Of a stretch of 29,014 bases of DNA, positions 1-20,174 are shown piece by piece (the stretch's first letter is position 1; each line of letters opens with the position of its first letter). The position numbers and the translations under genes were made by a program. Origin of the DNA: a virus. The DNA is taken from the IMG/VR virus record IMGVR_UViG_3300017996_000185, positions 1-29,014 of that record. One strand, given 5' to 3'. Under the pieces are notes generated by a model. It did not search any database. It saw only the letters and a program-made list of their open reading frames with translations, and was not told where the DNA came from.

Positions 1-106
1 ACGCCCAGGTCCATCAAGGCCAGTGCGCCGGCCCAACGATCGGTTGCCCAACGGCAATTACAGACCGAAAACTCCGGTGTGCTATAACTTACGGTTGGGA
101 GGATAC

Positions 107-400
107 GTGACGGAACTCCGGGAATGGATGCATCTGTTGACCGAAATATTTACGCTCATCGGCATCTGGTGGGCCGCGCTAAAGGTTGTCGCGGTAGCCG
201 AAAAAAAGATCGATGAGCACGAGCGCCGCATCTCCTCTCTTGAAAAAACGCGCGAATACGACGCCAATCTGTTCAGCGATTTGGTGAAGCAAATTGCCGG
301 AGTCGCCGGCAAGATGGATATCATGGTATCTGAACTTGGTCGCGTGCGGGACAGGCTCGACCGATTCGTGGACGCAAAGGCAACGGCGGGGGCGGATTAG
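107..400 (+). CDS. Small membrane-anchored coiled-coil protein (holin- or spanin-like)
   Basis: The protein has 97 residues from a GTG start. I chose GTG at 107 because a strong GGGAGG ribosome site lies 4 bases upstream; the open frame extends back to 23 but that part has no ribosome site. After a short N-terminus comes one hydrophobic segment (about residues 8-26, containing IFTLIGIWWAALKVVAV), then a charged helical stretch with heptad spacing (KKIDEHERRISSLEKT and on to the end), predicted to be a coiled coil. This topology is common in phage lysis accessory proteins such as class III-like holins or inner-membrane spanin subunits, but no family-specific motif is visible. It converges with the leftward cluster, the stop codons overlapping at 397-400. 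A lysis role is inference. Confidence 0.6.
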   Translation: MTELREWMHLLTEIFTLIGIWWAALKVVAVAEKKIDEHERRISSLEKTREYDANLFSDLVKQIAGVAGKMDIMVSELGRVRDRLDRFVDAKATAGAD

Positions 401-597
401 CCTTCCTGCCCGCTGATCCGGTGCCACTCCACCAGCATCAAGAACTCATCCGGCCCGATATTGCCATCCATTAGCGCGACAATTGCGCGCGCTCTCGGCG
501 AGTCGCCGCACTCCGGGTACATGAGCGCGAGCTGCGCGTCAACTACCGCCATGTCGGACGGTTCCTGCGGGTTTTCGACGATTGGAATGTCGGTCAC
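397..597 (-). CDS. Hypothetical small phage protein, 66 aa
   Basis: The leftward gene starts at GTG 597, directly preceded by AAAGGAGC, a good ribosome site; the longer frame back to 747 has no ribosome site and covers a hairpin. The acidic soluble protein begins VTDIPIVENPQEPSDMAVVD and ends in a likely helical segment (FLMLVEWHRISGQEG). I do not recognise a family. It is the last gene of the leftward cluster; its stop overlaps the stop of the convergent gene at 107-400. A hairpin lies immediately upstream of the ribosome site, so its expression may be limited by termination. Confidence 0.6.
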   Translation of the reverse strand: MTDIPIVENPQEPSDMAVVDAQLALMYPECGDSPRARAIVALMDGNIGPDEFLMLVEWHRISGQEG

Positions 598-617
598 GAT
601 TTGCTCCTTTCCAAAAC

Positions 618-643
618 GTGGGAGCCCCTCGCGAGACTCCCAC
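618..643 (-). terminator. Hairpin with T-run, possible terminator or attenuator
   Basis: On the minus strand GTGGGAG pairs with CTCCCAC across a 12-base loop that itself contains the palindrome CTCGCGAG, followed by G and TTTT. It lies between the leftward genes 749-874 and 397-597, just before the ribosome site of the latter. The short T-run makes it a weak intrinsic terminator or an attenuator. Confidence 0.4.
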
Positions 644-748
644 CGGGCCACATGCCTGCTACCACCGTCATATTGTGCGCATCCTCTAATGTTTCCAACA
701 CAATCCAGTCCTTCATTCCAAGGGGAATTATATACATGATTACCCACG

Positions 749-874
749 CTAAGACTTGGCCTTTACTTTCTTCGCTTTCCGCGCGCGGCGCTTCTGTGAC
801 TTCGTTTTCGGCGCGGGCTTATAGCGGAGAACGGCGTCCACAATGGCATCCAAGCACTTCGGCGTCTCGCTCAT
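749..874 (-). CDS. Tiny protein with a strongly basic C-terminal tail, 41 aa
   Basis: ATG at 874 is preceded by TGGAG about 9 bases upstream and an in-frame stop lies further upstream, which limits the start. The product begins MSETPKCLDAIVDAVLRYKP and finishes in a run of lysine and arginine (KTKSQKRRARKAKKVKAKS), 18 of the last 30 residues or so being small or basic. Such tails bind nucleic acid or make a protein sticky to the nucleoid or the capsid interior. It overlaps the 3' end of the preceding gene (819-1049) by 56 bases in another frame, which is large even for a phage, so one of the two may be mis-called. No family recognised. Confidence 0.55.
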   Translation of the reverse strand: MSETPKCLDAIVDAVLRYKPAPKTKSQKRRARKAKKVKAKS

Positions 875-1049
875 GCAGATACTCCATGGAAGCTATGGAC
901 GTGCCCGCGCGGGTCGGCCTTAATCCCGAAGCGTTTGGCGCGTTCCAAGCGCGATCCTGAAGGTATTGGCGAGCGTTGTACAGCGTGTCGCTGGCCGTGC
1001 TCTCCATGTAGGCCGCGCGGAGGATTCGGACGGCTTCTTTACGCAGCAC
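819..1049 (-). CDS. Hypothetical small phage protein, 76 aa
   Basis: The frame begins with two adjacent GTG codons (1052 and 1049). GGGGAGG sits 6 bases before the second, so I use 1049. The start lies inside the 3' end of the upstream gene (stop at 1039), a translational-coupling arrangement. The protein starts VLRKEAVRILRAAYMESTAS, a likely amphipathic helix, and ends with GCHCGRRSPL. No family is recognised. Its last 56 bases overlap the next small gene in another frame, which lowers confidence for the C-terminal end. Confidence 0.5.
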   Translation of the reverse strand: MLRKEAVRILRAAYMESTASDTLYNARQYLQDRAWNAPNASGLRPTRAGTSIASMEYLHERDAEVLGCHCGRRSPL

Positions 1050-1407
1050 CACCCACCTCCCCAAGTACCTCCGCCAGCGCCGTGGACCTGACGCGCTCGT
1101 GTTCCGCCAGCGCCTTGGCCGTGACGCGCTCATATTCCGCCAGCGCCGTGGCCGTGACGCGCTCGTGTTCCGCCAGCGCCGTGGACCTGACGCGCCGGTA
1201 TTCCGCCCACGCCTTGGCCGGGTCTTCGATGCAGGCGGTGGAATTGAGCAGCCACTCGGTATCCCCGACGCCGTTGTGCTTGAGCACGTCGAGTGCGTCG
1301 ATGGGGTCATTCGGGCCGATAGGCCCGAGGTTGGATTTGAGGTACTCGTAGCGGGCGGAGCAAGCTCCCCCCTCCTTGAGCCGGTGCAACGTTGTGTGAA
1401 TCTTCAT
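1039..1407 (-). CDS. Helical protein with tandem 11-residue repeats, 122 aa
   Basis: ATG at 1407 is preceded by GGGAGGTGA, an almost perfect ribosome site. Residues 1-65 form a small non-repetitive domain (MKIHTTLHRLKEGGACSARY at the N-terminus; then NDPIDALDVLKHNGVGDTEW). From about residue 66 the protein is built of 11-residue repeats of the form (T/K)ALAEHERVR(S/A), four clear copies and a degenerate first one beginning KAWAEYRRVRS. Hendecad repeats like this form long right-handed helical coiled coils. The 11-residue ALAE(Y/H)ERV repeat type is, from memory, seen in other uncharacterised phage proteins, but I know of no function. It sits in the leftward accessory cluster. The DNA repeats are described separately. 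Confidence 0.65.
   Translation of the reverse strand: MKIHTTLHRLKEGGACSARYEYLKSNLGPIGPNDPIDALDVLKHNGVGDTEWLLNSTACIEDPAKAWAEYRRVRSTALAEHERVTATALAEYERVTAKALAEHERVRSTALAEVLGEVGGAA
1072..1236 (-). repeat. 33-bp tandem repeat inside the hendecad-repeat gene
   Basis: On the plus strand the units start at 1072, 1105, 1138 and 1171, each 33 bases long and beginning CGCCAGCGCC, alternating between the cores GTGGACCTGACGCG and TTGGCCGTGACGCG (or a mixture). A fifth degenerate unit starts at 1204 (CGCCCACGCC). The unit length is a multiple of three and matches the 11-residue protein repeat exactly, so copy number can change without breaking the frame. Confidence 0.85.
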
Positions 1408-1410
1408 CGG

Positions 1411-1677
1411 TTAGGTCACCTCCCGTTTGCTTTTTTCCAGCGCGCGAAAAACGGACATTTGAGGACATCCTGGCGGCAGCGGGCGCGCGCTCCGCTGCAC
1501 AGGTTGCGTCTTAAGCCGAATGCTCATCGGTGTAGAGTTGCGACCCGGCTTGCCACGCCCCGCGTGGAGTTTCTTCGACTCGTGCTTGTTCGCTTCCAAC
1601 CCACCGACAAAGCACTCATCGATTTCCACGTCTCCGCGCAATTTGTCCAGGTCGATTCCGCCGCACCATGTAGATCC
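1411..1677 (-). pseudogene. IS1595-family transposase fragment (ISXO2-like catalytic part)
   Basis: On the minus strand the frame contains DVEIDECFVGG (1632-1600) followed by NKHESKKLHAGRG ending at 1552. This is the first part of the ISXO2-like transposase domain, where the typical form is (V)EVDEtyvGGk..NkH..K...aGRG, with a DDE-type catalytic acid. After GRG the sequence no longer looks like transposase, and upstream of it there is only the end of the gene at 1704-1976, so at most a quarter of a transposase remains. There is no start or ribosome site of its own. It lies between two small phage genes and is a decayed insertion. Compare the other two fragments at 2424-2583 and 2739-2900. Confidence 0.7.
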
Positions 1678-1705
1678 GAGCGGTTTCCTCGTCTGGAAAC
1701 CGCTC
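1678..1705 (-). terminator. Perfect 11-bp stem hairpin after the gene at 1704-1976
   Basis: GAGCGGTTTCC pairs perfectly with GGAAACCGCTC around a 6-base loop. The stop codon of the leftward gene lies in the stem. There is no T-run on either side, so it is a strong structure that may slow transcription or protect the mRNA 3' end rather than a textbook intrinsic terminator. It could also be an end of the decayed IS element next to it. Confidence 0.5.
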
Positions 1706-1976
1706 AGAGCAACTCGTACCGCACCTCGGCGCGATTGAACCAAGCGTCCAGCCCGCACGCCACGGCGTTGCGGACTTCGGTTTCAGACCAATCCGCGAAG
1801 TTGTCCGCGAGGGGGCGGATAGCACCGCCGCGCGGAAGGCCGAGCGCTTCGTTTATTTCCTCGTCGGTCGTTTCGGTTGTTTCCGCGTTGCACTCCGGGT
1901 GTGCTTCAAACCAAGCGCTTTTTGCGGATTCGATAACATCGATTACGCTGCTGTCGTCTTCGATCCAGGTCGTCAT
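1704..1976 (-). CDS. Hypothetical acidic phage protein, 90 aa
   Basis: ATG at 1976 has GGAGG 8 bases upstream and its own near-consensus promoter just before it (1998-2026), so this is a well supported gene start. The product is acidic, begins MTTWIEDDSSVIDVIESAKS, continues with a Thr/Glu-rich linker (ETTETTDEEINEA) and ends in a helical part (WSETEVRNAVACGLDAWF). I do not recognise it. A dedicated promoter plus a following hairpin suggests a single-gene early transcript, perhaps a host-interaction protein; that role is a guess. Longer upstream frame (to 2210) is not needed and would cover the promoter. Confidence 0.65.
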   Translation of the reverse strand: MTTWIEDDSSVIDVIESAKSAWFEAHPECNAETTETTDEEINEALGLPRGGAIRPLADNFADWSETEVRNAVACGLDAWFNRAEVRYELL

Positions 1977-1997
1977 CTGAACTGCCTCCATGCTTTT

Positions 1998-2026
1998 ATA
2001 ATAGTTCATCCACATGCTGCTGTAAA
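1998..2026 (-). promoter_or_regulatory. Leftward sigma70-type promoter with 17-bp spacer
   Basis: Minus strand: -35 TTTACA at 2026-2021, 17-base spacer, -10 TATTAT at 2003-1998. A start about 7 bases later gives a short leader with the GGAGG site of the gene at 1976. The -35 and following bases (TTTACAGCAGCATG) match the other leftward promoter at 2304 (TTGACAGCAGCATG) at 13 of 14 positions. Confidence 0.65.
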
Positions 2027-2038
2027 GCAAAAAGTGAA

Positions 2039-2269
2039 CTATTTTTGCGTTATCGGTAAAGTATGGGCATTTTGCGAGGATTTCGCGCGCGCTGCTCGCC
2101 GGCGCCGCTGGTAATCCCGCATCACGCACTTGCCGCAGATCCCACACTCGCAGGTCGGCCGCGACCCGCTGCCATGGCTCCGCCGGCGCGCCTGGCTTCG
2201 CCGCCCCCACTCCGACTTCAGCCGCGCGTCCGGTATCGTGTCAAGCTCCCAGTCCTCTCGGTATTTCAC
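2039..2269 (-). CDS. Small basic protein with a Cys cluster, 76 aa
   Basis: The frame is open back to 2554, but a near-consensus promoter (2304-2276) predicts transcription starting at about 2269, exactly at an in-frame GTG, so a leaderless GTG start is the best fit (the ATG at 2293 would lie within the promoter). The protein begins VKYREDWELDTIPDARLKSE, then has an Arg/Ser-rich stretch and a cysteine cluster CECGICGKCVMRDYQRRRRA, followed by a basic tail. C-x-C-x2-C-x2-C with a flanking RD-Y-RR helix resembles small zinc-binding HNH-adjacent or DNA-binding proteins seen in phages; without histidines no nuclease activity can be claimed. It is the first gene of the leftward cluster. Confidence 0.55.
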   Translation of the reverse strand: MKYREDWELDTIPDARLKSEWGRRSQARRRSHGSGSRPTCECGICGKCVMRDYQRRRRAARAKSSQNAHTLPITQK

Positions 2270-2275
2270 ATGCTG

Positions 2276-2304
2276 ATCATAGCCGTATTCCATGCTGCTG
2301 TCAA
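2276..2304 (-). promoter_or_regulatory. Leftward consensus sigma70 promoter
   Basis: Minus strand: perfect -35 TTGACA at 2304-2299, 17-base spacer, -10 TATGAT at 2281-2276 (5 of 6). Its -35 lies only 11 bases from the -35 of the rightward promoter at 2316, making a back-to-back divergent control region. The predicted start coincides with the GTG at 2269. Confidence 0.75.
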
Positions 2305-2314
2305 GCGCTTCCCG

Positions 2315-2354
2315 ATTGAGCCCAGCCAGCAAAAGCGCGATAATTGGCGCATGG
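2315..2354 (+). repeat. 40-bp direct repeat copy 1: rightward promoter ahead of the terS relic
   Basis: This 40-base block is 38/40 identical to 4642-4681; the last 29 bases are identical. It contains -35 TTGAGC at 2316-2321, a 17-base spacer, and -10 GATAAT at 2339-2344. An ATG follows 6 bases after the -10, as in copy 2, where that ATG starts terS. The block is therefore a duplicated promoter plus start codon rather than an anonymous repeat. Confidence 0.85.
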
Positions 2355-2431
2355 CATGGGCAAAGGCTGGGCCGGGGCGCAAATCTCTTTTCACCACCGA
2401 ACTTGCGGCGGAAATTTGCTGCGAACAGTGA
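2351..2431 (+). pseudogene. Truncated 5' end of a second small-terminase gene
   Basis: From the ATG in repeat copy 1 the frame runs for only 26 codons and contains GPGRKSLFTTELAAEICCEQ before TGA. The pattern (K/G)PGR-x-x-x-(F/Y)-T-x-E-L-A-x-E-I-C is typical of the N-terminus of phage small terminase proteins of the GRPxKYTPELAEEIC type. The intact terS at 4678 begins MGTRKPGRPTTYDPMFCELI, similar in layout but clearly different in sequence. The frame breaks at 2424-2431, exactly where an IS1595 transposase fragment on the opposite strand ends, so an insertion or rearrangement probably cut the gene. The assignment rests on about 20 residues. Confidence 0.5.
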
Positions 2432-2583
2432 AATCGAACGCACAGGAAAGACAGCGGTAGAACCCCGGTTTGCGCGTGGCGCATACGCCGAGCGCGGAGA
2501 CTTTCTCACCGGATTTGCAGTCGGGGCAGAGGCGCCCGGAGCCAGGACAGGCATTCCCTGGGGTCGAGTGGCAGGAGGACAGG
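2424..2583 (-). pseudogene. IS1595-family transposase N-terminal zinc ribbon, fragment
   Basis: On the minus strand one frame encodes CPDC (2528-2517), then about 20 residues, then PGFYRCLSCAFDFTV (ending near 2424). This is the N-terminal zinc ribbon of IS1595-family transposases (CPxC ... RPGxYRCxxCxxxFTV). Just upstream another frame gives RECLSWLRAP, matching the segment that normally precedes the ribbon, so there is a frameshift between them. After FTV the homology stops abruptly at the terS relic. No start codon or complete frame remains. Confidence 0.65.
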
Positions 2584-2738
2584 CTTCAGGGGAAGGAGTG
2601 GTTGGCGGAGCGGGCGTCGAAAAAGCTGAAGAACAATCTTCTTTACACGAGCATGGCAGGTGCGGTCCTGCGATTCGAAGTTCGAGAATCAGGGATTCGA
2701 GGAGGATTGATGCGCCTGCGCTTTGCCCAGCCGGAGCG

Positions 2739-2905
2739 GATCGATATCTGAGCGAATTTCAGTTCCGCTGGAACCGTAAGGCTCAGAACGTAGTCATACT
2801 TGTGACCGCGCTGCGGCTGGGATCGGGCGCGATCTGCCGTACGAGCAGCTCATCGCGGAGCTTGAGCAGACGACGGCCAGCGGACCGGATGTGGAACTCC
2901 GACCA
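2739..2905 (+). pseudogene. IS1595-family transposase C-terminal fragment, opposite orientation
   Basis: On the plus strand, from 2739, DRYLSEFQFRWNRKAQNVV followed by VTALRLG matches the C-terminal part of ISXO2-like transposases (RYL.EF.FR.N.R). A frameshift near 2820 then gives GRDLPYEQLIAELEQTTASG, the usual end of such proteins. The stop codon is lost and this second frame runs on in frame into the gene at 2957. Being on the opposite strand from the fragments at 1411 and 2424, it shows at least two insertions or an inversion. About 150 bases between it and the zinc-ribbon fragment (2584-2738) show nothing I recognise. Confidence 0.65.
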
Positions 2906-2910
2906 AGAGT

Positions 2911-2949
2911 TTGCTCACGCTTGACAAGATTGAGCAAAAAGACCATACT
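2911..2949 (+). promoter_or_regulatory. Promoter with flanking inverted-repeat operator for the XRE-ImmA operon
   Basis: A -35 TTGACA (2921-2926), 17-base spacer and -10 CATACT (2944-2949) precede the ATG at 2957 by 7 bases. The -35 is bracketed by a perfect 7-bp inverted repeat, TTGCTCA (2911-2917) and TGAGCAA (2931-2937), with half-site centres 20 bases apart, about two helical turns. This is the usual geometry for a dimeric or tetrameric HTH repressor, and the XRE protein encoded second in the operon is the obvious candidate. Confidence 0.7.
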
Positions 2950-2956
2950 GCTTAAC

Positions 2957-3379
2957 ATGAGACTTGAGTCCAAGCCATGGGGCGAGAAGTACGCCGACAT
3001 GTTTTGCTCTGAGGTTCCCGTCGAGGTCCAGCGGGCACTGCTCCACGGGCTGTTCCGCAATTATTCAGACGCATCAGAGCACTGCTATACGGTTTTTCGC
3101 CACCCTATAGCTCGGAATGCGAGCGGTCCATACAGGCACTCGAAGATTGAGGATGACTGGTGCGGCATAGCGGAGCGCTTCGCTTCAGAGAATCGCAACC
3201 GCCCCGCATTTGCAAAGGTACGCTTCCCGAACAGACGATTCTCTGGCTACATCGGCAAAGGAGTGGACCTCTGGACGAGGTTTGCGGATATTGTTGGGCA
3301 ATTCATTGATGTCAAGAACGACTTTACCAAACCTGCTCCCGTCAAACCGCGCACTCCTGTCAAAGAGGAACAGGCGTGA
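2957..3379 (+). CDS. Unrecognised 140-aa partner of the XRE-ImmA protein
   Basis: ATG at 2957 lies 7 bases after a -10 box and lacks a Shine-Dalgarno site, so it is probably leaderless; the frame is open further upstream only because it fuses with a transposase relic. The product begins MRLESKPWGEKYADMFCSEV and continues PVEVQRALLHGLFRNYSDAS, with HSKIEDDWCGIAERFA in the middle and a Lys/Pro-rich tail (KPAPVKPRTPVKEEQA). It is soluble, with no signal or membrane segment. Its stop overlaps the GTG of the next gene (GTGA), so the two are translationally coupled. The gene pair layout, with an upstream short gene and a downstream HTH-protease, resembles toxin-antitoxin, immunity or lysis-lysogeny modules, but I cannot assign a family. 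Confidence 0.65.
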   Translation: MRLESKPWGEKYADMFCSEVPVEVQRALLHGLFRNYSDASEHCYTVFRHPIARNASGPYRHSKIEDDWCGIAERFASENRNRPAFAKVRFPNRRFSGYIGKGVDLWTRFADIVGQFIDVKNDFTKPAPVKPRTPVKEEQA

Positions 3380-4524
3380 TTTCTGGGACGCCAGGGTTTG
3401 TAGGAGTCCGACTAAAACAGGCGCGGGAGGCCATGGGCCTTACAGTTACCTCTCTAGGGCAGGCTTTGGGGGTGACGAAGCAGGCCGTCTCCAGATGGGA
3501 AGGTGGATTAGATTCTCCACGTCCTGAGCTTTTTGATAGGCTTTGCGGTATTCTCTGCCAGCCGGCGTACTTCTTCATGCAGCCTATCAACTCAAGCCTG
3601 TTTCGGGGCACACGATTCTATCGCTCACTCGCCTCAACGACCTCCGCAGCAAGGCAGAAGGCCGACGCGCGTAATTTCTGGGCGAGGGAGACAGCCAACT
3701 ACGTGCTGCGCTACGTTGAGTTTCCGCGCGTTAATTTTCCGGTCTGGAAAATTGCCGATCCGTCAGCGCTGACCATGCGGGACGTTGAGGTGTGGGCAAC
3801 AGAAACCAGAAAATTCTGGGGGCTCGGAGACGCCCCTATCGCGAATCTGCTTAGGGTTGCAGAAAATAACGGGGCTTTGGTGGTGAGGGATTATCTCGAT
3901 GCGGAAACGCTTGACGCCCTTTCGGAGTGGCTGGAGCCTGAAGGCATTCCGTTTATTGTCTTGAACGCCGACAAGGAAAGCGCCGTCAGGTCGCGCCTGG
4001 ATCTCGCGCATGAACTCGGCCATTTGATCCTGCATAGAAAGGTAAGTCAGGAAGAACTAAACAAGAAGGCTTTGTTTAAGCAGATCGAGAAACAGGCCTT
4101 TCGGTTCGGGGGTGCCCTACTACTGCCAGAGCGCGCCTTTTTGGCCGACTTGTACTCACTTTCTCTCGACGCCTTGCGGGCGCTCAAGTCGAAGTGGAAA
4201 GTCGCCATCGCGGCGATGATCTATCGATTGGCTGATCTCGGGGTGCTGACCGAAGATCAGGAAAAACGCTTTTGGATCAATTACGTGCGTCGCGGCTGGA
4301 GGCTTCGCGAGCCGCTAGACGATCAGTTGCCGTTCGAAATGCCGAGCCTGCTACCGCAGGCATTTCAGATCATGGTGGACCAGGGGCACGACCGTGATCA
4401 GATTCCTGGCAGCATCGGGCATGGGAAATCGCAGATCGAACAGATTGCAAATCTTCCAGAGAACTTCCTTGGACCGTTGCCGAGCGTACAGGCCAAGATC
4501 ATTCCGTTTCGGAAACTCGGTTAG
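3376..4524 (+). CDS. XRE-family HTH regulator fused to ImmA/IrrE metallopeptidase
   Basis: The 382-aa protein starts at GTG 3376, with GAGGAA about 6 bases upstream. Residues 8-60 form an XRE (Cro/C1-type) helix-turn-helix (LKQAREAMGLTVTSLGQALG, then VTKQAVSRWEGG). Residues about 150-255 form an ImmA/IrrE (DUF955, COG2856) peptidase domain with the zinc motif HELGH (H212, E213, H216) and a downstream E238 in IEKQAFRFGGALLLP, the expected third ligand. All catalytic residues are present. Family members act as self-cleaving or partner-cleaving regulators: IrrE cleaves the repressor DdrO, and ImmA cleaves ImmR in ICEBs1. Some also occur in toxin-antitoxin and anti-phage systems. Here it probably represses its own operator and is inactivated or activated through the protease. 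It could serve phage immunity, superinfection exclusion or lysogeny control. Confidence 0.9.
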   Translation: MISGTPGFVGVRLKQAREAMGLTVTSLGQALGVTKQAVSRWEGGLDSPRPELFDRLCGILCQPAYFFMQPINSSLFRGTRFYRSLASTTSAARQKADARNFWARETANYVLRYVEFPRVNFPVWKIADPSALTMRDVEVWATETRKFWGLGDAPIANLLRVAENNGALVVRDYLDAETLDALSEWLEPEGIPFIVLNADKESAVRSRLDLAHELGHLILHRKVSQEELNKKALFKQIEKQAFRFGGALLLPERAFLADLYSLSLDALRALKSKWKVAIAAMIYRLADLGVLTEDQEKRFWINYVRRGWRLREPLDDQLPFEMPSLLPQAFQIMVDQGHDRDQIPGSIGHGKSQIEQIANLPENFLGPLPSVQAKIIPFRKLG

Positions 4525-4532
4525 GCGGGCGT

Positions 4533-4586
4533 CTAGCTGGTACTAGGAGCGGTCTTATGAACCGCGATGCTCCCCCGTGCAGCGGG
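4533..4586 (+). other. Three consecutive hairpins, tRNA-like but not a complete tRNA
   Basis: Just after the ImmA stop come CTAG-CTGGTA-CTAG (4533-4546), GCGGT-CTTATGA-ACCGC (4549-4565) and CCCG-TGCAG-CGGG (4574-4586). The second has a 7-base loop with T at the position of U33, like an anticodon arm with anticodon TAT; the first resembles a D arm. No matching acceptor stem or T arm can be built, so this is either a tRNA relic or a structured terminator for the XRE-ImmA operon. The rest of the 4525-4641 gap shows nothing else. Confidence 0.3.
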
Positions 4587-4641
4587 TCCGACACTGGCGG
4601 GCTGGGGCGCGGAAACTCCAGCAGTCTGAAGTGCCTATCCC

Positions 4642-4681
4642 ATTGAGACCAACCAGCAAAAGCGCGATAATTGGCGCATGG
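4642..4681 (+). promoter_or_regulatory. 40-bp direct repeat copy 2: promoter of terS
   Basis: The block has -35 TTGAGA (4643-4648), a 17-base spacer and -10 GATAAT (4666-4671), each 5 of 6 to consensus, with the terS ATG at 4678 only 6 bases later. No Shine-Dalgarno site precedes the ATG, so the transcript is predicted to be leaderless. It is 38/40 identical to 2315-2354. It probably starts the packaging and morphogenesis operon. Confidence 0.75.
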
Positions 4682-5169
4682 GAACACGCAAGCCAGGCAG
4701 GCCAACCACTTACGATCCTATGTTTTGCGAGTTGATCCTAGACTACTTCGAGCGCGCGCGCACTGCACCAGCGCGGGACTTGGCGCCAGTCGATATCACT
4801 GAGACCGGATACGATGTAAAAGGCAAAAAGGGGTCGCAAAAACACGAGGTGCGCCGGATCTGCGCGGAATTGCCAACCATCGAAGGTTTCGCTGTCTCGG
4901 TTGGAATCCCAAGCAAAACGATAAAAGGTTGGGTAGCAAGTGGCAACTTTCCCGAGTTTGCAGACGCATACGCGCGCGCGAAAGACATTCAGTACCAGAT
5001 ACTTATCGACCGTGGGGTCACGCGGCAGTACGATCCGACAGCGTTTATTTTCGTCGCCAAAAACATCACCGAGATGACGGATAAGCAGGTGTTGGCCGGC
5101 GACGCGGATAACCCGTTGACGCTGGTGGTAGACGATGTTGGGAGGCGAGGGAAAGATGGAGCTGATTGA
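4678..5169 (+). CDS. terS: Terminase small subunit
   Basis: The 163-aa product begins MGTRKPGRPTTYDPMFCELI, the GRPxxYDxxF N-terminus usual in TerS proteins, and has a helix-turn-helix (PTIEGFAVSVGIPSKTIKGW) around residues 70-90, then FPEFADAYARAKDIQYQILI and a C-terminal FIFVAKNITEMTDKQVLAGD followed by a DNPLTLVVDD tail. TerS binds the packaging site on the phage DNA and delivers it to TerL. Location upstream of terL agrees, although three genes lie between them. The start is inside repeat copy 2, with no ribosome site and a promoter -10 six bases upstream, so leaderless translation is likely. A relic of a different terS lies at 2351-2431. Confidence 0.85.
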   Translation: MGTRKPGRPTTYDPMFCELILDYFERARTAPARDLAPVDITETGYDVKGKKGSQKHEVRRICAELPTIEGFAVSVGIPSKTIKGWVASGNFPEFADAYARAKDIQYQILIDRGVTRQYDPTAFIFVAKNITEMTDKQVLAGDADNPLTLVVDDVGRRGKDGAD

Positions 5170-5431
5170 CCGGGGCGGAAGCCGGCGCCGGCCGGTGTGC
5201 CGCGATTGCCATAAGCCGGGGCGTGCGCGCAAAAGCTGTAAACCGAACTGGATCTGCGCGCGGTGCTTTGATCGGGCCGTGCGCCACGCCATGGGGCGAC
5301 TGCGGCGCGTTCGGCGCTTCCCGCTGCGCCGGCCGCTGGAGCTTGAGGACGATGTATTTGCGGTCGTCAACAAGCTGTGGCAATGCGAAGTGACGCGCAT
5401 TTTTCGAGGCGAGGAGGCGTCAAATGAGTGA
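5156..5431 (+). CDS. Small basic zinc-ribbon protein, 91 aa
   Basis: ATG at 5156 is used because GGGAGGCGAGG lies just upstream; it overlaps the end of terS by 14 bases. Two CxxC knuckles, CRDC (near residue 16) and CARC (near residue 37), with an extra Cys between them and basic residues around, form a probable zinc ribbon (CKPNWICARCFDRA). The following 25 residues are Arg-rich (GRLRRVRRFPLRRPLELEDD), then comes an acidic helix. It is likely a nucleic-acid-binding protein. Position between terS and terL hints at a role in packaging or in control of this operon, but no family is recognised. Confidence 0.7.
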   Translation: MELIDRGGSRRRPVCRDCHKPGRARKSCKPNWICARCFDRAVRHAMGRLRRVRRFPLRRPLELEDDVFAVVNKLWQCEVTRIFRGEEASNE

Positions 5432-5930
5432 GGATTTGCGGACCACAGCTGCGGACCACATTGTGGACCATAGCTGCGGACCACAAACTGGGGTGCATAT
5501 AAGGAAGAAACCCAAAACCCGCGAACGGCTTTTGTCGGAGCGCCCCGACCGAAACGAAAGATACAGCGCTCTGGTATGGTTCGTGCTGACTGATCGTCGG
5601 TTGAAGCCGCTCGACTGGGGAGTTTACGCTTGCATTACATCGCAGGCTTTCGAAACCGATACCGTACAGGTCACCACTCGGTGGATAGCCGCCAATCTGG
5701 GCTCTGGTAGTACTACCATAAAACGTGGCATCGCACGTTTAACTGCAGCCGGCCATATTGCCATAATCGTTCAGCGTCGCGGCAATCAGGCGCCGATTTA
5801 CCGGCTCACGTCGCCGGTCTTCGGCAAGCGGCAAAAGATCATTCTGGAGGCCGGCGGAAAGTCTAAGCTCACAACACGTGCGGATCTCGAAACATTGCGC
5901 GAACGGGTAAGATTGTGCCAGTCGAAATAA
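5424..5930 (+). CDS. Winged helix-turn-helix protein, replication-initiator-like or regulator, 168 aa
   Basis: ATG 5424 overlaps the previous stop (ATGA) and has GAGGAGG 7 bases upstream. Residues about 45-130 form a winged helix: LKPLDWGVYACITSQAFETD, then VTTRWIAANLGSGSTTIKRG as the recognition part, then IARLTAAGHIAIIVQRR and a wing (GNQAPIYRLTSP). This is the layout of DnaD/RepA-N-type and GntR-like wHTH domains that read plasmid or phage origins, or regulate genes. The first 25 codons contain four copies of a 10-mer, so the protein may bind its own coding sequence. No ATPase or DnaD C-terminal motif is present. Initiator and transcription factor are both possible. Confidence 0.7.
   Translation: MSEDLRTTAADHIVDHSCGPQTGVHIRKKPKTRERLLSERPDRNERYSALVWFVLTDRRLKPLDWGVYACITSQAFETDTVQVTTRWIAANLGSGSTTIKRGIARLTAAGHIAIIVQRRGNQAPIYRLTSPVFGKRQKIILEAGGKSKLTTRADLETLRERVRLCQSK
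5438..5485 (+). repeat. Iteron-like direct repeats in the 5' end of the winged-helix gene
   Basis: GCGGACCACA occurs exactly at 5438, 5451 and 5476, and as GTGGACCATA at 5463, so four directly repeated 10-mers are spaced 13, 12 and 13 bases apart. Copies two and three also form an imperfect palindrome (GGACCACA-TTGTGGACC). The period is not a multiple of three and the encoded residues (RTTAADHIVDHSCGPQ) are not repetitive, so selection seems to act on the DNA. Confidence 0.8.
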
Positions 5931-5946
5931 AGGGGAAGACAGTGTT

Positions 5947-6636
5947 ATGATTCAGGAAAAGAAAGGAGTGCGCGAAGGATTGCCAGAGCACTCGTGCGGG
6001 CGCGGCCCAGAACGAGCCCTAATTATGCAAAGTCGTATCATTTGTGCGCTTATGCTTTCGGCTCTTGCCGGATCAGCCCAACAGCCTCGCGCAGCGCGCA
6101 CTGTCGCCAGCAACTACCCTTCGGACCTATACGGGCCAGTGGATACCAGGATGGCGGGCTGCATCGTAGCGGGTGGCCCTTGCATTTGGGGGCATGCAGA
6201 TTCCTCCATCTTCAACCAGCGCTTCTATCCGCCGGCCGGCTACCGGGTCCGCATTCTCAGCTTCCGGGGCGATCTCATTGCCTGGATCAAGAGCCTGCCG
6301 GGCGATCCGCCGACACCGCCGGAGAGCGCGGCGGGAATCCTGCTCGGCTTTCAAAGCACCTGGGTAGCAGGTGCGGACTGCGATTACTGTTCGGCTGGAG
6401 TGCCGTTGTACATCCAAGGCTCGGTGACCCAAGCGCAGCCGAACACGCGGGAACCGTTTGATTATGAGGACGTAGGGCTGATCCTAGGCGCCGATAACAT
6501 TCTCCAGGTGAAGCTAGCCGAGTATCTGAACACGACCGGCAAGCCAATCCACCTGGAAGCCACTTACGTGGTTCGATTCGAATACACTACCCAGGTGCAT
6601 GAAACTCCTACTGCAACCCAAGCAGCGCCACGTTGA
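5947..6636 (+). CDS. Exported protein of unknown function upstream of terL
   Basis: Two starts are possible. ATG 5947 has GGGGAAG 8 bases upstream and gives 229 aa; ATG 6025 gives a protein beginning MQSRIICALMLSALAGSAQQ, a clear Sec signal peptide, with only a weak ribosome site. Either way the product carries the hydrophobic export segment, so the mature part is probably exported. The mature domain (from about NYPSDLYGPVDTRMAG) has several cysteines (GCIVAGGPCIW, DCDYC) that could form disulfides in an oxidising compartment, and looks beta-rich. I do not recognise it. Its last 38 bases overlap terL. Exported proteins are unusual inside a packaging operon. Confidence 0.65.
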   Translation: MIQEKKGVREGLPEHSCGRGPERALIMQSRIICALMLSALAGSAQQPRAARTVASNYPSDLYGPVDTRMAGCIVAGGPCIWGHADSSIFNQRFYPPAGYRVRILSFRGDLIAWIKSLPGDPPTPPESAAGILLGFQSTWVAGADCDYCSAGVPLYIQGSVTQAQPNTREPFDYEDVGLILGADNILQVKLAEYLNTTGKPIHLEATYVVRFEYTTQVHETPTATQAAPR

Positions 6637-8209
6637 CGACCTCCTGAGCGGGCCGGCGCGCTGGATCGGAGAAGGCGGCGGCCGCGGCTGCGCTAAGAGC
6701 TACGGCGAGGACGCGCTGATGCTCAAGCGCCGCGGCGAGTTTCCTGGCACGGTCGGCTGCATCGTGATGCGCAACTATGACCAGGTGCGCAAGTACCATA
6801 TTGAGCCGATATTGCGCAATTGGCCGGAGCTTCGCCCGTACTATAACAAGGGCGATGCCAACATCAAATTTCCAACTGGCGGAAAAGGCAAAGAGACCAG
6901 CCAGATTGATTTCAGCTACGGCGACAACCTGCAGGAGATCGAGCGCCGGTTCCGCTCAGCCAACTATTACGACATTTTCGTCGATCAGGCTGAGCAATTT
7001 CTGGAAGATGAACTGCGCGAGATGAACAAGGCGTGCCGCTGGCCCGGCGTCAGCGGCGGCAAGTGTAAAATGCTGCTCGCCTTCAATATGGGGGGCGCCG
7101 GCATCCAGTCGTTGAAGAAATGGTTTCACTCGCACGAATACGGTGAGCGCGAGGATCCGGCGGATTTCACTTTCTTGCACGTGGATCCGTGGGACAACGT
7201 GGAATGGGCTCGCGCCTCGCTGGCGGAAGACGGGTTGAGTGATCACGACTACTATTACCAGTGGACCGACGAGCAGCGGTTTCAGTATTTTATCGCGCGT
7301 ACGGACTGGGGGAAATCGCTCAACGCGGAAGACGACGCCATCCGCAATCGGGACTTGCTCGGCTCGTGGGAATCGCTGGAAGGCGCTTACTTCGGGCGCG
7401 TGTTCGACCGGCGCGCAATGCTGGTGACGGCTCACCAGGTCGGTAAACTGCTGAACTACTGGGACACGCGCTGGATGAGCACGGATTGGGGGAAGGCGCA
7501 CTTTTGCGTATCGTACTGGCACGCAAAGGCGAACGTTTCGCCGGCTGCGGTGCGCGATGTTCTTGGCTGGGATGTTGAGGAGCCGCTGAGCATTGTGGTT
7601 ACCTACCGCGAGTGCGTTGTAAACGAGATGGCGTCTCCCGATGTTGCGGCCCGGTTGGTGGGGGTGACCCCCGAGAAAGAGCGCTCGGCACTCAAGCGGT
7701 ACTTTTTGTCGCCCGACGCGTTTGGCGAACGCGATTCCAGCATTACAACCGCGGCATCGCTCGGCAAGGTTCTGCGCGAAGCCAAAATGCCGCAGCCTGA
7801 GCGCGCGGACACAGACCGGGCCGGCGGCGCGCGCCTGATGTACGACCTGATGACGGAGAGCAAACGGCACGGTAGTGGCGGTGGAGACGTTTGGTTGATT
7901 TCGGCAGAATGCCCGCAATTGCTTGCCGCGATTCCGGTAATGATGCGAGACCAAAAGAATCTGGATGACGTGCTGAAGACGGATAAGAGTTCGGCACGAA
8001 TTGAGCAGGACTGTTTTGAGAGCGCGCGGTACGGGCTGAAATCCATGCTCTCGGCTACCAATAGCGTTCCGGCGCAGGAGCAGGCTCGTAGAATTCTTGA
8101 CGAATACGCCGGCGACCGCACCACTCAGGCGATACGGATGCAGGAGTGGGAATTGAAGCGCAGGAAAGTGATCACGAGGCGTGCCAGATGGCGTGCCCAA
8201 TCGTACTGA
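6599..8209 (+). CDS. terL: Terminase large subunit (ATPase-nuclease)
   Basis: The 536-aa protein starts at ATG 6599, overlapping the upstream gene. Residues 24-36 hold the Walker A region GEGGGRGCAKSYG (K33, S34). Walker B is IFVDQAEQF at 126-134, with D129 but Gln where terminases usually have the catalytic Glu; E132 is nearby. RRFRSANYYD before it and LLAFNMGGAGIQ after it fit the usual coupling motifs. The C-terminal RNase H-like nuclease begins at MSTDWGKAHFCVSYWH (D296) with E338 in ECVVNEMASPDVA and D404 or D406 in RADTDRAGGARLMYDL as likely metal ligands. TerL pumps DNA into the prohead through the portal and cuts the concatemer. Length is normal for the family. Confidence 0.92.
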   Translation: MKLLLQPKQRHVDDLLSGPARWIGEGGGRGCAKSYGEDALMLKRRGEFPGTVGCIVMRNYDQVRKYHIEPILRNWPELRPYYNKGDANIKFPTGGKGKETSQIDFSYGDNLQEIERRFRSANYYDIFVDQAEQFLEDELREMNKACRWPGVSGGKCKMLLAFNMGGAGIQSLKKWFHSHEYGEREDPADFTFLHVDPWDNVEWARASLAEDGLSDHDYYYQWTDEQRFQYFIARTDWGKSLNAEDDAIRNRDLLGSWESLEGAYFGRVFDRRAMLVTAHQVGKLLNYWDTRWMSTDWGKAHFCVSYWHAKANVSPAAVRDVLGWDVEEPLSIVVTYRECVVNEMASPDVAARLVGVTPEKERSALKRYFLSPDAFGERDSSITTAASLGKVLREAKMPQPERADTDRAGGARLMYDLMTESKRHGSGGGDVWLISAECPQLLAAIPVMMRDQKNLDDVLKTDKSSARIEQDCFESARYGLKSMLSATNSVPAQEQARRILDEYAGDRTTQAIRMQEWELKRRKVITRRARWRAQSY

Positions 8210-8238
8210 TTGCGAATTTCCCTTTCCGGATGTATGAT
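8210..8238 (+). promoter_or_regulatory. Possible rightward promoter in the terL downstream gap
   Basis: TTGCGA (8210-8215), a 17-base spacer and TATGAT (8233-8238) fill the short gap after terL. The ATG of the next gene is 8 bases beyond the -10, the same close spacing as at the terS promoter. The -35 matches only 4 of 6 positions. Confidence 0.4.
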
Positions 8239-8246
8239 TTGTGTGA

Positions 8247-8570
8247 ATGGAGACGCTTTTTGTGAAGCGCTTTCGACTTTGGCTTGCGCGGTGGCTATTT
8301 AGCGGAATCTTTCCGGATCCGGCGTCGTTTGAGCCGCTGGGGCTGGATTGGCAGCGCCAGTTGTCGGAATGGAAGAACGAGACCAATGGCGCACTGGGAG
8401 AATGCGGGTCCAAGATCGCGGAATTGGAAAAGGAAGTTTCCGAGATCAAAGAGAGTCTAAAACGTAGGGATCTCGCGCCTCGCGTGCGCCGAAAGGGATC
8501 TTTCACACAGTTTCGCGAAGCGGTACAATCCGGATTAGCTAGTACCGGAACGGAAGGAGAACAACGATGA
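8247..8570 (+). CDS. Hypothetical protein with a coiled-coil segment, 107 aa
   Basis: ATG 8247 is 8 bases from a -10 box and may be leaderless; GTG 8262, with GGAGA 8 bases upstream, is an alternative that removes five residues. The N-terminus is basic and aromatic (RFRLWLARWLFSGIFPDPAS), possibly a membrane-peripheral amphipathic helix. Then residues about 48-76 (ETNGALGECGSKIAELEKEV and SEIKESLKRRD) form a heptad coiled coil. The C-terminus is basic and polar. No family recognised; position between terL and portal suggests a head-assembly or lysis accessory role. The gene ends in an ATGA overlap with the next small gene. Confidence 0.6.
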   Translation: METLFVKRFRLWLARWLFSGIFPDPASFEPLGLDWQRQLSEWKNETNGALGECGSKIAELEKEVSEIKESLKRRDLAPRVRRKGSFTQFREAVQSGLASTGTEGEQR

Positions 8571-8737
8571 CGGCTTGCAACGAATTTATCCCTGGGAGAA
8601 ACCTCGCTTTCGGCGTTTGCGAGCGCTGTGGCGAACAACGACATCTGCACAGGCCAGCCCAATCACCCGCGCCACCTGAAGTTGCGCAACCGAAACCCGG
8701 TCCGGGTGAGCCTGTGGAACCCCCGAAGGAGGCCTGA
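8567..8737 (+). CDS. Small putative zinc-knuckle protein, 56 aa
   Basis: ATG 8567 overlaps the previous stop (ATGA) and has GGAAGGAG 7 bases upstream. The protein begins MTACNEFIPGRNLAFGVCER and continues CGEQRHLHRP, giving C-x3-F ... C-x2-C-G-x4-H, a compact zinc knuckle that I know from many small phage proteins, though without an assigned role. The C-terminal half is Pro/Glu-rich and probably disordered (PAPPEVAQPKPGPGEP). It precedes the His-rich protein and shares its transcript. Confidence 0.65.
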   Translation: MTACNEFIPGRNLAFGVCERCGEQRHLHRPAQSPAPPEVAQPKPGPGEPVEPPKEA

Positions 8738-8740
8738 TAA

Positions 8741-9208
8741 ATGCCGACCGATTCCAAGGGCAAATTCCACCCAAATCACCAACTGGCGCATGCTGCGGAT
8801 CGTATGCCGATGCCGGATCGTCCGAAGCCGCCAGCGATCGGCAAAGCTGTCGGGGACGCCAGTGTGTCCCACACGACGCTGCACGACCACGGCGACGGAA
8901 CCTTTCACCTGGAGCACGAGGACGGGTCTAGTACCGAAAGCCCGCATATCGGCCACGCCTTAATGTCGATGGCGTCCAAGCACTCTGACGGAATGCACAT
9001 GCATGTCCACCAGCATCCGACCGAAGGGCTGAAAACGCATCATGTCGGCGATGATGGACAAGTACAGGGGCCGCACGACCACGCGAATATCGAAGCGCTG
9101 AAAGATCACCTTGGAAAGTTCTTCAACGAGGAAGAGCACGAGGGCGGCGGTTACGGTGGCGGCGAAGGATACGGATCGTCTGCCGAAGATGATGGGATGG
9201 GGATTTGA
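8741..9208 (+). CDS. Histidine-rich phage protein, 155 aa
   Basis: AAGGAGG sits 9 bases before the ATG. The protein has 21 histidines, in clusters such as HTTLHDHGDGTFHLEHEDG, HMHVHQHP, THH and HDH, and a Gly/Glu-rich tail (EEEHEGGGYGGGEGYGSS). The spacing suggests beta-strands with alternating histidines that could bind zinc, nickel or copper, and a region ALKDHLGKFFNEEEHE at the end that looks helical. His-rich proteins with HDHGDGT-type motifs occur in several phage morphogenesis operons, with no proven function known to me. No signal peptide. Metal binding is inference. Confidence 0.75.
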   Translation: MPTDSKGKFHPNHQLAHAADRMPMPDRPKPPAIGKAVGDASVSHTTLHDHGDGTFHLEHEDGSSTESPHIGHALMSMASKHSDGMHMHVHQHPTEGLKTHHVGDDGQVQGPHDHANIEALKDHLGKFFNEEEHEGGGYGGGEGYGSSAEDDGMGI

Positions 9209-9240
9209 GCCGGCCTAACGCCGGGAATGAAGACACAAAC

Positions 9241-10821
9241 GTGAAAACAAGAATTTTGCTGGTGGCTATACTGGCGGCGCTTCCGTTACTCGCTCAGAAT
9301 CGTACTAGTTTCGCTGGCGAATACAATGCGATGGACTACGCCTATGGCGTGATTCCTAACGTTGGGCCGTTGCGCGTCAACGTCGGGTTCAACGTTCCGT
9401 CATCGCCAACTTCGCTAACGCTCACTTTGGCATACGGAAACATTGCACTGGGAGACGGCACTACCGTCATGCCGCTGAGCGTAAATGCGCCGATCACCGT
9501 TGGCGTCGGCTCGAATGCCGAAACGGTAACGCCCTCCGGGGTAAGTTGCGGAACGCCAGCAATTTATTCCACGTGTCAGGTTACTGCGACGTTTTCAAAA
9601 GGGCACGGGACAGGCGACATTGTAGCTAGCGGCTCGTACGGATTGCAGGAAGCGATCAATGCAGCCTCAATGGGAGGGTTGGTTGCGGTGAGTTCGAAGT
9701 GGACGCAAATTGGCGGAACGAACGCGATAATTTCGTCGGCAGTTCCTCTGGCGGGAGTGGTCATCGAGGACAACCGTTCAGGCCCCTCTCAATGTTGGAG
9801 CGTTCAGCCGACGACTCTGACCACTATTTCTGCGCCTACAACTTTGACGAATTCGACCGTGACGTTCACGGCTTCTCCGACCGGGACATGGCAGACTTCA
9901 GCGTATTATTTCTGCATCACGTATGTAGATATGCTTGGAGGGGAAAGCGCTTGCTCTGCGAGCTATACGCAGACCCCCGGGACGGCGAACTATACGCTCA
10001 ACATCACGTCTCCAGCAACGAGCACGGGAGCTGTCGGGTGGCGAGCTTACGGTGGCGTGACTTCGACGGCCCTCGCGTATCTTCTGCCGATATCGGCTAC
10101 GAACTGCACGCTGACCACGCTGGAAAGTGTGATGCCGGCATGCGCCATCGGCTCGAATGGCCAATGGCCGTTGATCTATGTGACCACTACCGCGCTAAGC
10201 CCACTGGCGTTGGGAGTGACGAACCAGAACAATCCGGTACCGCAGAGCCATACCACATTTGCATACCAGCCTACCGGCTCGCTTCCGACGACGTTACAGC
10301 AGAATTACGGACCGTTCGCCAGCGGCGCGGTGGCGAGCGCCACGGCAACCGATGTGACTGTGCTCGGCACCGTGGAACTTCCGACCGGCTACCTAAACCA
10401 GATCGGTCGCACGGTTCGATTAACAGGCAAGATTGTCGGTGGAGTAACCACCACAGGGACGCTGGAGATTATCGTGGGAACCTCATGGCCTGGAGGGGCG
10501 ACTGCGGGATTGCCGAAGACGCTATGCGATATCGTCAATACCGGAGCGACGTTCACCACCGCTACCGTAGCGATTCCGTTCAGTTGTACTCTGACCACGA
10601 ATGCGGTAGGTGCGACTGCGGTTGGAAGCCTCCAGGCTGACGGGTGGGCTACAGCCGGTGCGGCTGGAGTACTTGGTGTGGCGTGGACCGACAATTCGCA
10701 GTCCGCAGTTGGATCGGTAGGGCTGTTCTCGCAGAACGAAGTATCCGTATTCGTAAAGCCCGCTACCGAAGCGTTCACTGCGGCTCAATTGATGGATCTG
10801 CACGTAGAGACCGTCCAGTAG
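9241..10821 (+). CDS. Large exported beta-rich protein, possible receptor-binding or fibre protein
   Basis: I place the start at GTG 9241, which gives a signal peptide VKTRILLVAILAALPLLAQ (526 aa in all); a TTG at 9205 overlapping the previous stop would add 12 residues before it. The mature protein is rich in Thr, Ser, Gly and Ala, with almost no long helices. N-terminal 150 residues look Ig-like or jelly-roll; the C-terminal 150 (from TVELPTGYLNQIGRTVRLTG to EAFTAAQLMDLHVETVQ) resemble the trimeric jelly-roll tips of phage fibres. Cysteines in pairs (VSCGTPAIYSTC, FCITYVDMLGGESAC) suggest disulfides. A fibre or surface adhesin is plausible, but a signal peptide is not expected on a virion protein assembled in the cytoplasm. 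Confidence 0.65.
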   Translation: MKTRILLVAILAALPLLAQNRTSFAGEYNAMDYAYGVIPNVGPLRVNVGFNVPSSPTSLTLTLAYGNIALGDGTTVMPLSVNAPITVGVGSNAETVTPSGVSCGTPAIYSTCQVTATFSKGHGTGDIVASGSYGLQEAINAASMGGLVAVSSKWTQIGGTNAIISSAVPLAGVVIEDNRSGPSQCWSVQPTTLTTISAPTTLTNSTVTFTASPTGTWQTSAYYFCITYVDMLGGESACSASYTQTPGTANYTLNITSPATSTGAVGWRAYGGVTSTALAYLLPISATNCTLTTLESVMPACAIGSNGQWPLIYVTTTALSPLALGVTNQNNPVPQSHTTFAYQPTGSLPTTLQQNYGPFASGAVASATATDVTVLGTVELPTGYLNQIGRTVRLTGKIVGGVTTTGTLEIIVGTSWPGGATAGLPKTLCDIVNTGATFTTATVAIPFSCTLTTNAVGATAVGSLQADGWATAGAAGVLGVAWTDNSQSAVGSVGLFSQNEVSVFVKPATEAFTAAQLMDLHVETVQ

Positions 10822-18554: not shown

Positions 18555-19340
18555 TTGCCTACCGCTCCGCTGGATACGCTCGAAAGCGTTGTCAACACGG
18601 CGCGGAGCCGTCTCAATGATGCCATCGTAGCAATCGGTGGCGAAATTTTCACCGACAATTCCGCATTCGGGCTTACTGCTATCATCGCCGCGTGGCGCAG
18701 AACCCAGGAATACCTAGCCAGCCGAGGATTTCAAGATCTGATCCAGGAAACGATTTTCAAAAATGTCACGGCTTGCGCAAGTCCAGATCAAGGCCAGTTC
18801 GTGTGGTTTAACTGGACGCAATATTTCGACGGAAATGCACCGCACAACACCCCAGTATTTCCGCAGAACATGATATACCCAATAGCCGTAGAGGAGCGCA
18901 TCGGAGGCACAACCGGGAATTTCACGCCCGTGGATCAATGCTTCGTCGGGCTCCCAACGGTAGCGAAAGGAGTCTTAAATCTCCTGTGGGAATGGCGTAA
19001 CGAGTCGATCTACATGCCAGGAGCGACAGGGCCAACGGACATACGGTTGCGATTTGCGCAATTTTTGCCGGATTTCGTGTCGTCGTCCACCGACCCATGG
19101 AACAATCAGCCGGTTCCAATTATGCGCGTGCTCTCCTGCTTCGCCTGGTTCATTTGCTCCGAAGTCGCCCGTCCGCGCGGCGATATGGATGCCGGATATT
19201 TCGACCAGCAGGCTATCGCCGCGGCGGAGTTGGTGTTCGGGCGAGATTATCAGCCCGCGCAGCAGGTTTTCAAGCCTGCGGAACTCGCAAAGATGCCGGA
19301 TCAAACTGAGCCAGTCGGCGGGCAAGGGCGTGGACAATGA
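18555..19340 (+). CDS. Connector-like protein, paralog 1 of 3
   Basis: TTG 18555 has AGGAG 7 bases upstream. The 261-aa protein shares a set of motifs, in order, with the next two genes: LDTLESVVNTARSRLNDAIV; the FTDNSAFGL position (compare VKNDQAFSQ and LENNQSFSL); FPQNMIYPIAVEERIGGTTG; the VDQCFVGLP position; WEWRNESIYMPGATGPTDIR; QPVPIMRVLSCFAWFICSEV; RPRGDMDAG. These three proteins follow the capsid genes and precede the big tail or stabilisation protein, where connectors are expected. A head-tail connector or ring protein is the best guess from place and size. Confidence 0.7.
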   Translation: MPTAPLDTLESVVNTARSRLNDAIVAIGGEIFTDNSAFGLTAIIAAWRRTQEYLASRGFQDLIQETIFKNVTACASPDQGQFVWFNWTQYFDGNAPHNTPVFPQNMIYPIAVEERIGGTTGNFTPVDQCFVGLPTVAKGVLNLLWEWRNESIYMPGATGPTDIRLRFAQFLPDFVSSSTDPWNNQPVPIMRVLSCFAWFICSEVARPRGDMDAGYFDQQAIAAAELVFGRDYQPAQQVFKPAELAKMPDQTEPVGGQGRGQ

Positions 19341-20173
19341 CGGCTCCATACGATACCGTAAACAGCGTTCGCATCGCTGCCGAAGTGCGTCTCAATGGGC
19401 TTGTGAACACGCTCCAGCCTATTTCTGGACGCATTGTAAAAAATGATCAGGCGTTTTCGCAACAGGTGTTCAACAATTCCTTCAGGAGATTTCAGGAAGC
19501 TCTCGCAAATTTTAAGTATACCGGGCTCCAGCAGGAAACTACCTTCTCTTCCTTCCCCGCTGCACTCAGTAAGGACCCGTTGACACAGGTTACGCTTGGC
19601 TTCTATGGATATACCGACAGCTATAATGGAAACTTGTCTCCGATTCCGGCCCTACCCGCCAACATGATTCGACCTTATCAGATTTGGGAGAGGATCGCCG
19701 GCAGTGCAGCTTTATTGACGGAAGTGGATATCCTCACCGATGCTTTGCCGAAGGTTCCCAAGGGACCGTGGAATCGTCAATGCCAGTGGCTTGACGACGC
19801 ACTGCTTCTGCCTGGAGCATTGCAAACTACCGACATCGCGATGCTGTACGGTGCGTATATCGCTGATTTCGCCGACGTGCCGGCAAATCCTGGCCAGAAT
19901 CAGGTGATCGGGCCATGGTATTTGCAGCCAGTTCCAATTCTGCGCTGTCAGGATCCGCTTGCTGATTTCATTTGCCGGGAGATCTTCTACGCGCGAGGAG
20001 ACATGGACGCCGTTGCCGCAATTGAAGCAATGGCACAGGCCAGCACTCGACAACTAGCGGCACGAGACGCTACGGAGCCGGAATCGATATACAAGTCATC
20101 CGAGTTCGGTAAGATGCGTGATCCATATACTCCCACGGAGGGCGGCCCAAGGTCGCAGATGGTGAGGAGATAA
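19337..20173 (+). CDS. Connector-like protein, paralog 2 of 3
   Basis: ATG 19337 overlaps the previous stop (ATGA). The 278-aa product repeats the plan of its neighbours: YDTVNSVRIAAEVRLNGLVN, PISGRIVKNDQAFSQQVFNN, LPANMIRPYQIWERIAGSAA, PGALQTTDIAMLYGAYIADF, LQPVPILRCQDPLADFICRE, FYARGDMDA. It is closer to paralog 3 in its N-terminus (QPISGRIVKNDQAF versus YPITGRILENNQSF). The WEWR motif of the other two is replaced by QCQWLDDALLLPGA, so it has diverged. Probably part of the same ring or connector complex. Confidence 0.7.
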   Translation: MTAPYDTVNSVRIAAEVRLNGLVNTLQPISGRIVKNDQAFSQQVFNNSFRRFQEALANFKYTGLQQETTFSSFPAALSKDPLTQVTLGFYGYTDSYNGNLSPIPALPANMIRPYQIWERIAGSAALLTEVDILTDALPKVPKGPWNRQCQWLDDALLLPGALQTTDIAMLYGAYIADFADVPANPGQNQVIGPWYLQPVPILRCQDPLADFICREIFYARGDMDAVAAIEAMAQASTRQLAARDATEPESIYKSSEFGKMRDPYTPTEGGPRSQMVRR

Positions 20174-20174
20174 A

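Follow-up and report, generated by a model that had tools for sequence, protein, structure and literature searches.

Why would a phage carry two almost identical copies of what looks like one promoter, the first joined to a broken packaging gene and the second to an intact one, with a two-gene module that resembles a toxin-antitoxin system in between? The question arises near the left end of a 29-kb viral contig (29,014 nucleotides, linear, from a metagenome), referred to here over its whole length as the window. An original prediction, made from the letters alone, had read the locus as an accessory module that entered at the promoter of terS, and had gone on to propose a hot spot at which phages of this group exchange genes while keeping packaging under the same promoter.

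The repeated promoter block and its two terS genes

The two blocks, both on the plus strand, are identical at 38 of 40 positions when 2315-2354 is compared with 4642-4681, and at 40 of 43 when the comparison is widened to 2312-2354 and 4639-4681. They share an identical run of 29 nt (from 2326 and from 4653), and no exact repeat in the window is longer; for the 28-nt core of the block shuffled sequence gave an expectation of zero chance matches with up to three mismatches allowed. Identity begins just 5' of the -35 element and ends one base past the ATG, and outside the repeat the flanks agree at chance level (12/40 on the left, 13/40 on the right). The left block (2312-2354) consists of TTGAGC (2316-2321), a 17-nt spacer, GATAAT (2339-2344), 6 nt and the ATG at 2351; the right block (4639-4681) has TTGAGA (4643-4648), a 17-nt spacer, GATAAT (4666-4671), 6 nt and the ATG at 4678. 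The predicted repeat is therefore real, and each copy does comprise a -35, a 17-base spacer and a -10, followed by an ATG that opens a TerS-like frame. A possible operator palindrome inside the block was dropped, its arms measuring just 4 bp by eye.

Used as a single query TerS found no relatives, and the comparison set of 80 phage loci was obtained through a TerL alignment with the terL of the window as the query (6599-8209, plus strand; PHROG 979, E 3.5e-6). When 769 six-frame fragments of the window were ranked against the N-terminal TerS model of these relatives, the top score went to the frame opening at 2351 (E 5e-5), followed by that of the intact terS at 4678 (E 0.009). The first of these, here called terS(A), is a remnant of 26 codons (MAWAKAGPGRKSLFTTELAAEICCEQ; 2351-2431, plus strand), and its top rank supports the proposal that an old, now broken, terS began here. 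The second, terS(B) (4678-5169, plus strand), matches PHROG 3064 (terminase, E 4e-14) and the relatives' TerS model (E 4e-12) and still has the C-terminal tail that is usual in this group. In DNA the two genes show no likeness past the ATGG (13/40 matches), and the right terS is, as had been suggested, both complete and different. Between terS and terL the window also encodes a replication-initiator-like winged-helix protein (5424-5930; PHROG 391, E 2e-5), whereas the replication initiator genes of relatives lie upstream of terS.

In both copies of the block the -10 is separated from the ATG by 6 nt, too short for a leader or a Shine-Dalgarno site, so that the expected transcription start is the start codon and the terS mRNA would be leaderless; from this spacing, we infer that transcription starts on the A of the ATG and is followed by leaderless translation. 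A -10 some 6-8 nt ahead of the start codon, the sign of leaderless expression for which we looked, is present in both copies and also in the promoter of the module described below. In 11 of 34 dereplicated relatives a -10-like hexamer precedes the terS start by 5-8 nt, compared with 0-3 of 34 in each of six upstream control windows, and the same signal is far rarer at the other ORFs of these loci (29 matches in 602), all these counts being approximate since ORF starts were set by the crude rule of the first start codon in frame. The relatives' terS promoters conserve the position of the -10 but not the sequence of the spacer. Because terS genes of relatives have this geometry too, with an equally spaced -10, the interpretation of the block as the promoter of the packaging gene terS is supported. 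GCGC before the -10 was also considered in the relatives, where it shows at best a mild excess (22 versus 2-14 for control motifs), and we make no claim for it. Leaderless expression of terS, should it hold for this phage group, would allow the packaging operon to be inherited, and to recombine, as a small unit that carries no ribosome-binding site, and this would account for changing terS variants under a constant promoter.

The left copy is adjoined on its left side by a divergent leftward gene that also has leaderless geometry, its promoter (2276-2304, minus strand; TTGACA-17-TATGAT) standing 6 nt before a GTG at 2269. This promoter has TTnACAGCAGCATG in common with another leftward promoter (1998-2026, minus strand), the start codon lying 6 nt past the -10 in both, so that this phage has a further family of promoters of leaderless geometry. 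Further to the left a leftward gene contains a 33-nt in-frame tandem repeat (1070-1234), and a homologue with Ala-rich repeats is found in a relative (L036, 4205-4819).

The RmrA-like gene and its 140-aa partner

The module between the two copies consists of two plus-strand genes that overlap by 4 nt (3376-3379). The downstream gene (3376-4524) encodes a 382-aa protein in which an XRE-type helix-turn-helix (HTH) domain is fused to an ImmA/IrrE metalloprotease domain. It is RmrA-like by PADLOC (E 5e-118, covering residues 1-377 of 382 and thus full-length), matches PHROG 2439 (E 4e-87), and its zinc motif HELGH is invariant in the alignment. The upstream gene (2957-3379) encodes a protein of 140 aa that belongs to no recognised family and occupies the position of RmrT, the candidate toxin. 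The predicted two-gene XRE-ImmA operon was correct as to the number of genes but not as to their content, since XRE and ImmA are domains of a single protein and the other gene of the overlapping pair is unrelated to either. The module has a promoter-like site of its own (2921-2949, plus strand; TTGACA-17-CATACT), 7 nt 5' of the ATG at 2957, which shares TTGA and the spacer motif AGCAAAA with the block in the same register; the spacers agree at 9 of 17 positions, a level reached by 1.6% of 17-mers.

RmrA is the antitoxin of the RosmerTA toxin-antitoxin phage-defence systems, whose toxins (RmrT) are diverse, and the phage-borne RosmerTA of Gordonia phage Kita protects against coliphages (PMC10440598). 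Nearly all of the roughly 80 RmrA relatives that we collected from genomes and plasmids have a same-strand upstream partner, mostly no more than about 50 nt away or overlapping. The 140-aa partner had no match in Pfam, PHROGs, NCBIfam or PADLOC, and no homologue in the plasmids, viral contigs or genomes searched. It did not match the PADLOC RmrT models at E values up to 5, although 7 of 8 reference RmrA partners do, and against 11 partner clusters its best score was non-significant (4.0 bits for the largest RmrT cluster, against 3.9 bits in shuffles). Its predicted structure is poor (pLDDT 50). With neither an RmrT match nor a homologue of the partner in the collections searched, the RosmerTA assignment is limited to the RmrA half. 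Judged by sequence, the module is an RmrA with an unrecognised partner and probably works like RosmerTA, in which case the 140-aa protein would be the toxin and the function of the module would be defence; as a candidate for a new RosmerTA-type toxin, the partner is directly testable. The original prediction also mentioned immunity and lysogeny genes among those that might be exchanged; nothing that we found indicates that the module serves as the immunity or lysogeny control of this phage.

IS1595 remnants and the loci of relatives

Directly after the terS(A) remnant lies the zinc-ribbon part of an IS1595-type transposase (2418-2537, minus strand; E 7e-7 in a tblastn search of the window only, with the transposase of relative L077), and a possible C-terminal scrap on the plus strand (2727-2774) is not significant (E 0.36). 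IS1595 pieces had been expected between the repeats in both orientations; the minus-strand piece is there, the plus-strand piece falls away at this E value, and the strongest piece, a remnant with internal deletions (1474-1743, minus strand; Pfam PF12762, E 2e-4; tblastn E 3e-14), actually lies outside, to the left of the left copy. Inverted repeats of at least 16 nt that bracket the module, as an IS1595 composite transposon would have, are absent from the window. In three relatives an IS1595 transposase is located left of terL and on the strand opposite to it (L077 912-1832, L054 860-1774 and L048 639-1154, all minus), intact in L054 and L077 and partly so in L048, so this zone seems to receive such elements repeatedly. 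Identity between the L048 and L054 copies is 97%, which points to recent movement.

Of 81 loci, 42 yielded a TerS, which with few exceptions was encoded no more than about 2 kb upstream of TerL. In 39 terS-bearing loci the sequence before terS was long enough, and in 17 of these it exceeded 2.5 kb, to look for a second copy of the locus's own terS promoter, and none of the 39 showed one; a search for RmrA homologues across the relatives' loci was likewise negative. Within 4 kb upstream of terS the genes of the same 17 loci belong mostly to replication, methyltransferase and regulator families. Two genes upstream of relatives' terS gave weak matches to RmrA (best E 9e-11), which we read as shared HTH domains. 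With no second promoter copy in the 39 loci and no RmrA found in the relatives, the proposed hot spot for gene swapping is unsupported. Some relatives do have just one terS promoter, of diverged sequence, and in several loci leftward genes border terS (from ORF calls only), as they do at the left copy in the window, which suggests that the left copy occupies the ancestral site and that the arrangement in the window is exceptional.

Another contig (L014/G003), with a capsid 65% identical to that of the window, was rejected as a comparison locus: its TerS-like gene is a different one, about 11 kb from terL, and its left arm is dissimilar. In one relative (L030) a single open frame of 3307 aa (69-9992) ends directly before terL. 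Elsewhere in the window three adjacent genes of about 261-278 aa (18555-20984) appear to be mutual paralogues, the first without a PHROGs match, and the window has no tRNA or Rfam matches.

Origin of the arrangement and comparison with known systems

The explanation to which we give somewhat better than even chances is one recombinational insertion of the RosmerTA-like two-gene module at a leaderless terS promoter unit. The earlier idea of an accessory module entering at the terS promoter survives here as the simplest account, shorn of its extension to a hot spot. The unit is compact, comprising the -35, the spacer, the -10 and the start codon, and a segment carrying a toxin-antitoxin or defence module would have recombined into it. 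A leaderless gene, which needs no leader, would be disabled by anything inserted between its promoter and its ATG, and a segment that destroyed terS(A) would persist only where a working terS retained the complete promoter-ATG unit; a single crossover or similar recombination at the shared unit would place one copy at each end of the segment. Both copies would survive because a leaderless gene works only with promoter and ATG joined, one copy remaining on the disrupted terS(A) and the other on the intact terS(B), which may have arrived with the module or before it. As the module has the same orientation as terS it could be read from the left copy too, besides its own promoter-like site; the HTH domain of RmrA would repress the operon, RmrA would neutralise the 140-aa partner, and the protease domain may respond to infection. 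That there was a single insertion event, and its direction, we infer. Against this reading, searches of viral_contigs with the promoter core and with a shorter version of it returned no match, hence no phage with the same promoter and no empty site at the DNA level, and the likeness of the spacers could be maintained by a regulator common to both sites instead of stemming from a recent duplication.

If such a regulator, for instance a phage late regulator, kept the two blocks alike by selection, they would be independent sites that were never duplicated. The module promoter, in which TTGA and AGCAAAA are aligned as in the block, and the leftward promoters, whose shared motif shows that promoter families exist in this phage, are consistent with this, but the identical run of 29 nt takes in the bases between the -10 and the ATG and exceeds the sharing among the other promoters of the window, and the relatives' terS promoters keep the -10 position without the spacer sequence; we therefore judge independent sites quite improbable. 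Unlikely, though far from negligible, is a tandem duplication of the terS region, or the acquisition of another terS from a closely related phage, after which the first gene decayed and the module and the insertion sequences came later and independently. Both TerS N-termini fit the group model, terS(B) has the group-typical tail, and the separate IS1595 debris on either side of the left copy speaks for repeated insertions; the DNA of the two genes, however, is unlike past the ATGG while their promoters are nearly identical, which excludes a simple duplication unless it is very old.

An assembly artefact, in which two related phages were fused at a shared promoter, seems very improbable to us. 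The window is a metagenome contig, no second contig covers positions 1-7300, and its composition is even, as that of a chimera of relatives would also be. The sole near-identical contig (L012/L003, the same population) does not reach the locus, L012 beginning inside terL, so the join across 2355-4638 rests on the window contig. The longest shared word of 29 nt is nevertheless short for an assembly error, the last-used k-mers of metagenome assemblers being usually longer than this, and the decayed sequence on both sides fits an old event. A bolder form of the single insertion at the leaderless unit, which we consider doubtful, would make the terS promoter and its ATG a leaderless recombination cassette at which cargo and terS variants are swapped; every insertion would have to bring a new copy of promoter and ATG, and the cargo here would be a defence pair whose toxin belongs to a new family.

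Among known elements, IS1595 (ISXO2-like) insertion sequences are represented by remnants in the window and by intact transposases in relatives, but the copies in the window have decayed and fail to flank the module on both sides. Defence hotspots are described for P2-like phages and P4-like satellites (PMC9122126); the locus is similar in having an accessory defence-like module in a phage at a fixed flank, and different in being one occurrence, with no module exchange seen in relatives. The HTH and ImmA domains recall the repressors and antitoxins of the ImmR/ImmA type and of the spr1629 family (NF052239, E 3e-55), although the score is below the NF052239 cut-off (188 versus 335 bits) and repressor and protease are not separate genes. 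From RosmerTA the module departs in the size of its partner (140 aa versus about 200-280 aa), which falls outside all PADLOC RmrT models, and in its place between two terS promoter copies, while it shares with RosmerTA the fusion of XRE and ImmA, the full-length match to RmrA, a partner directly upstream on the same strand, and its presence on a phage.
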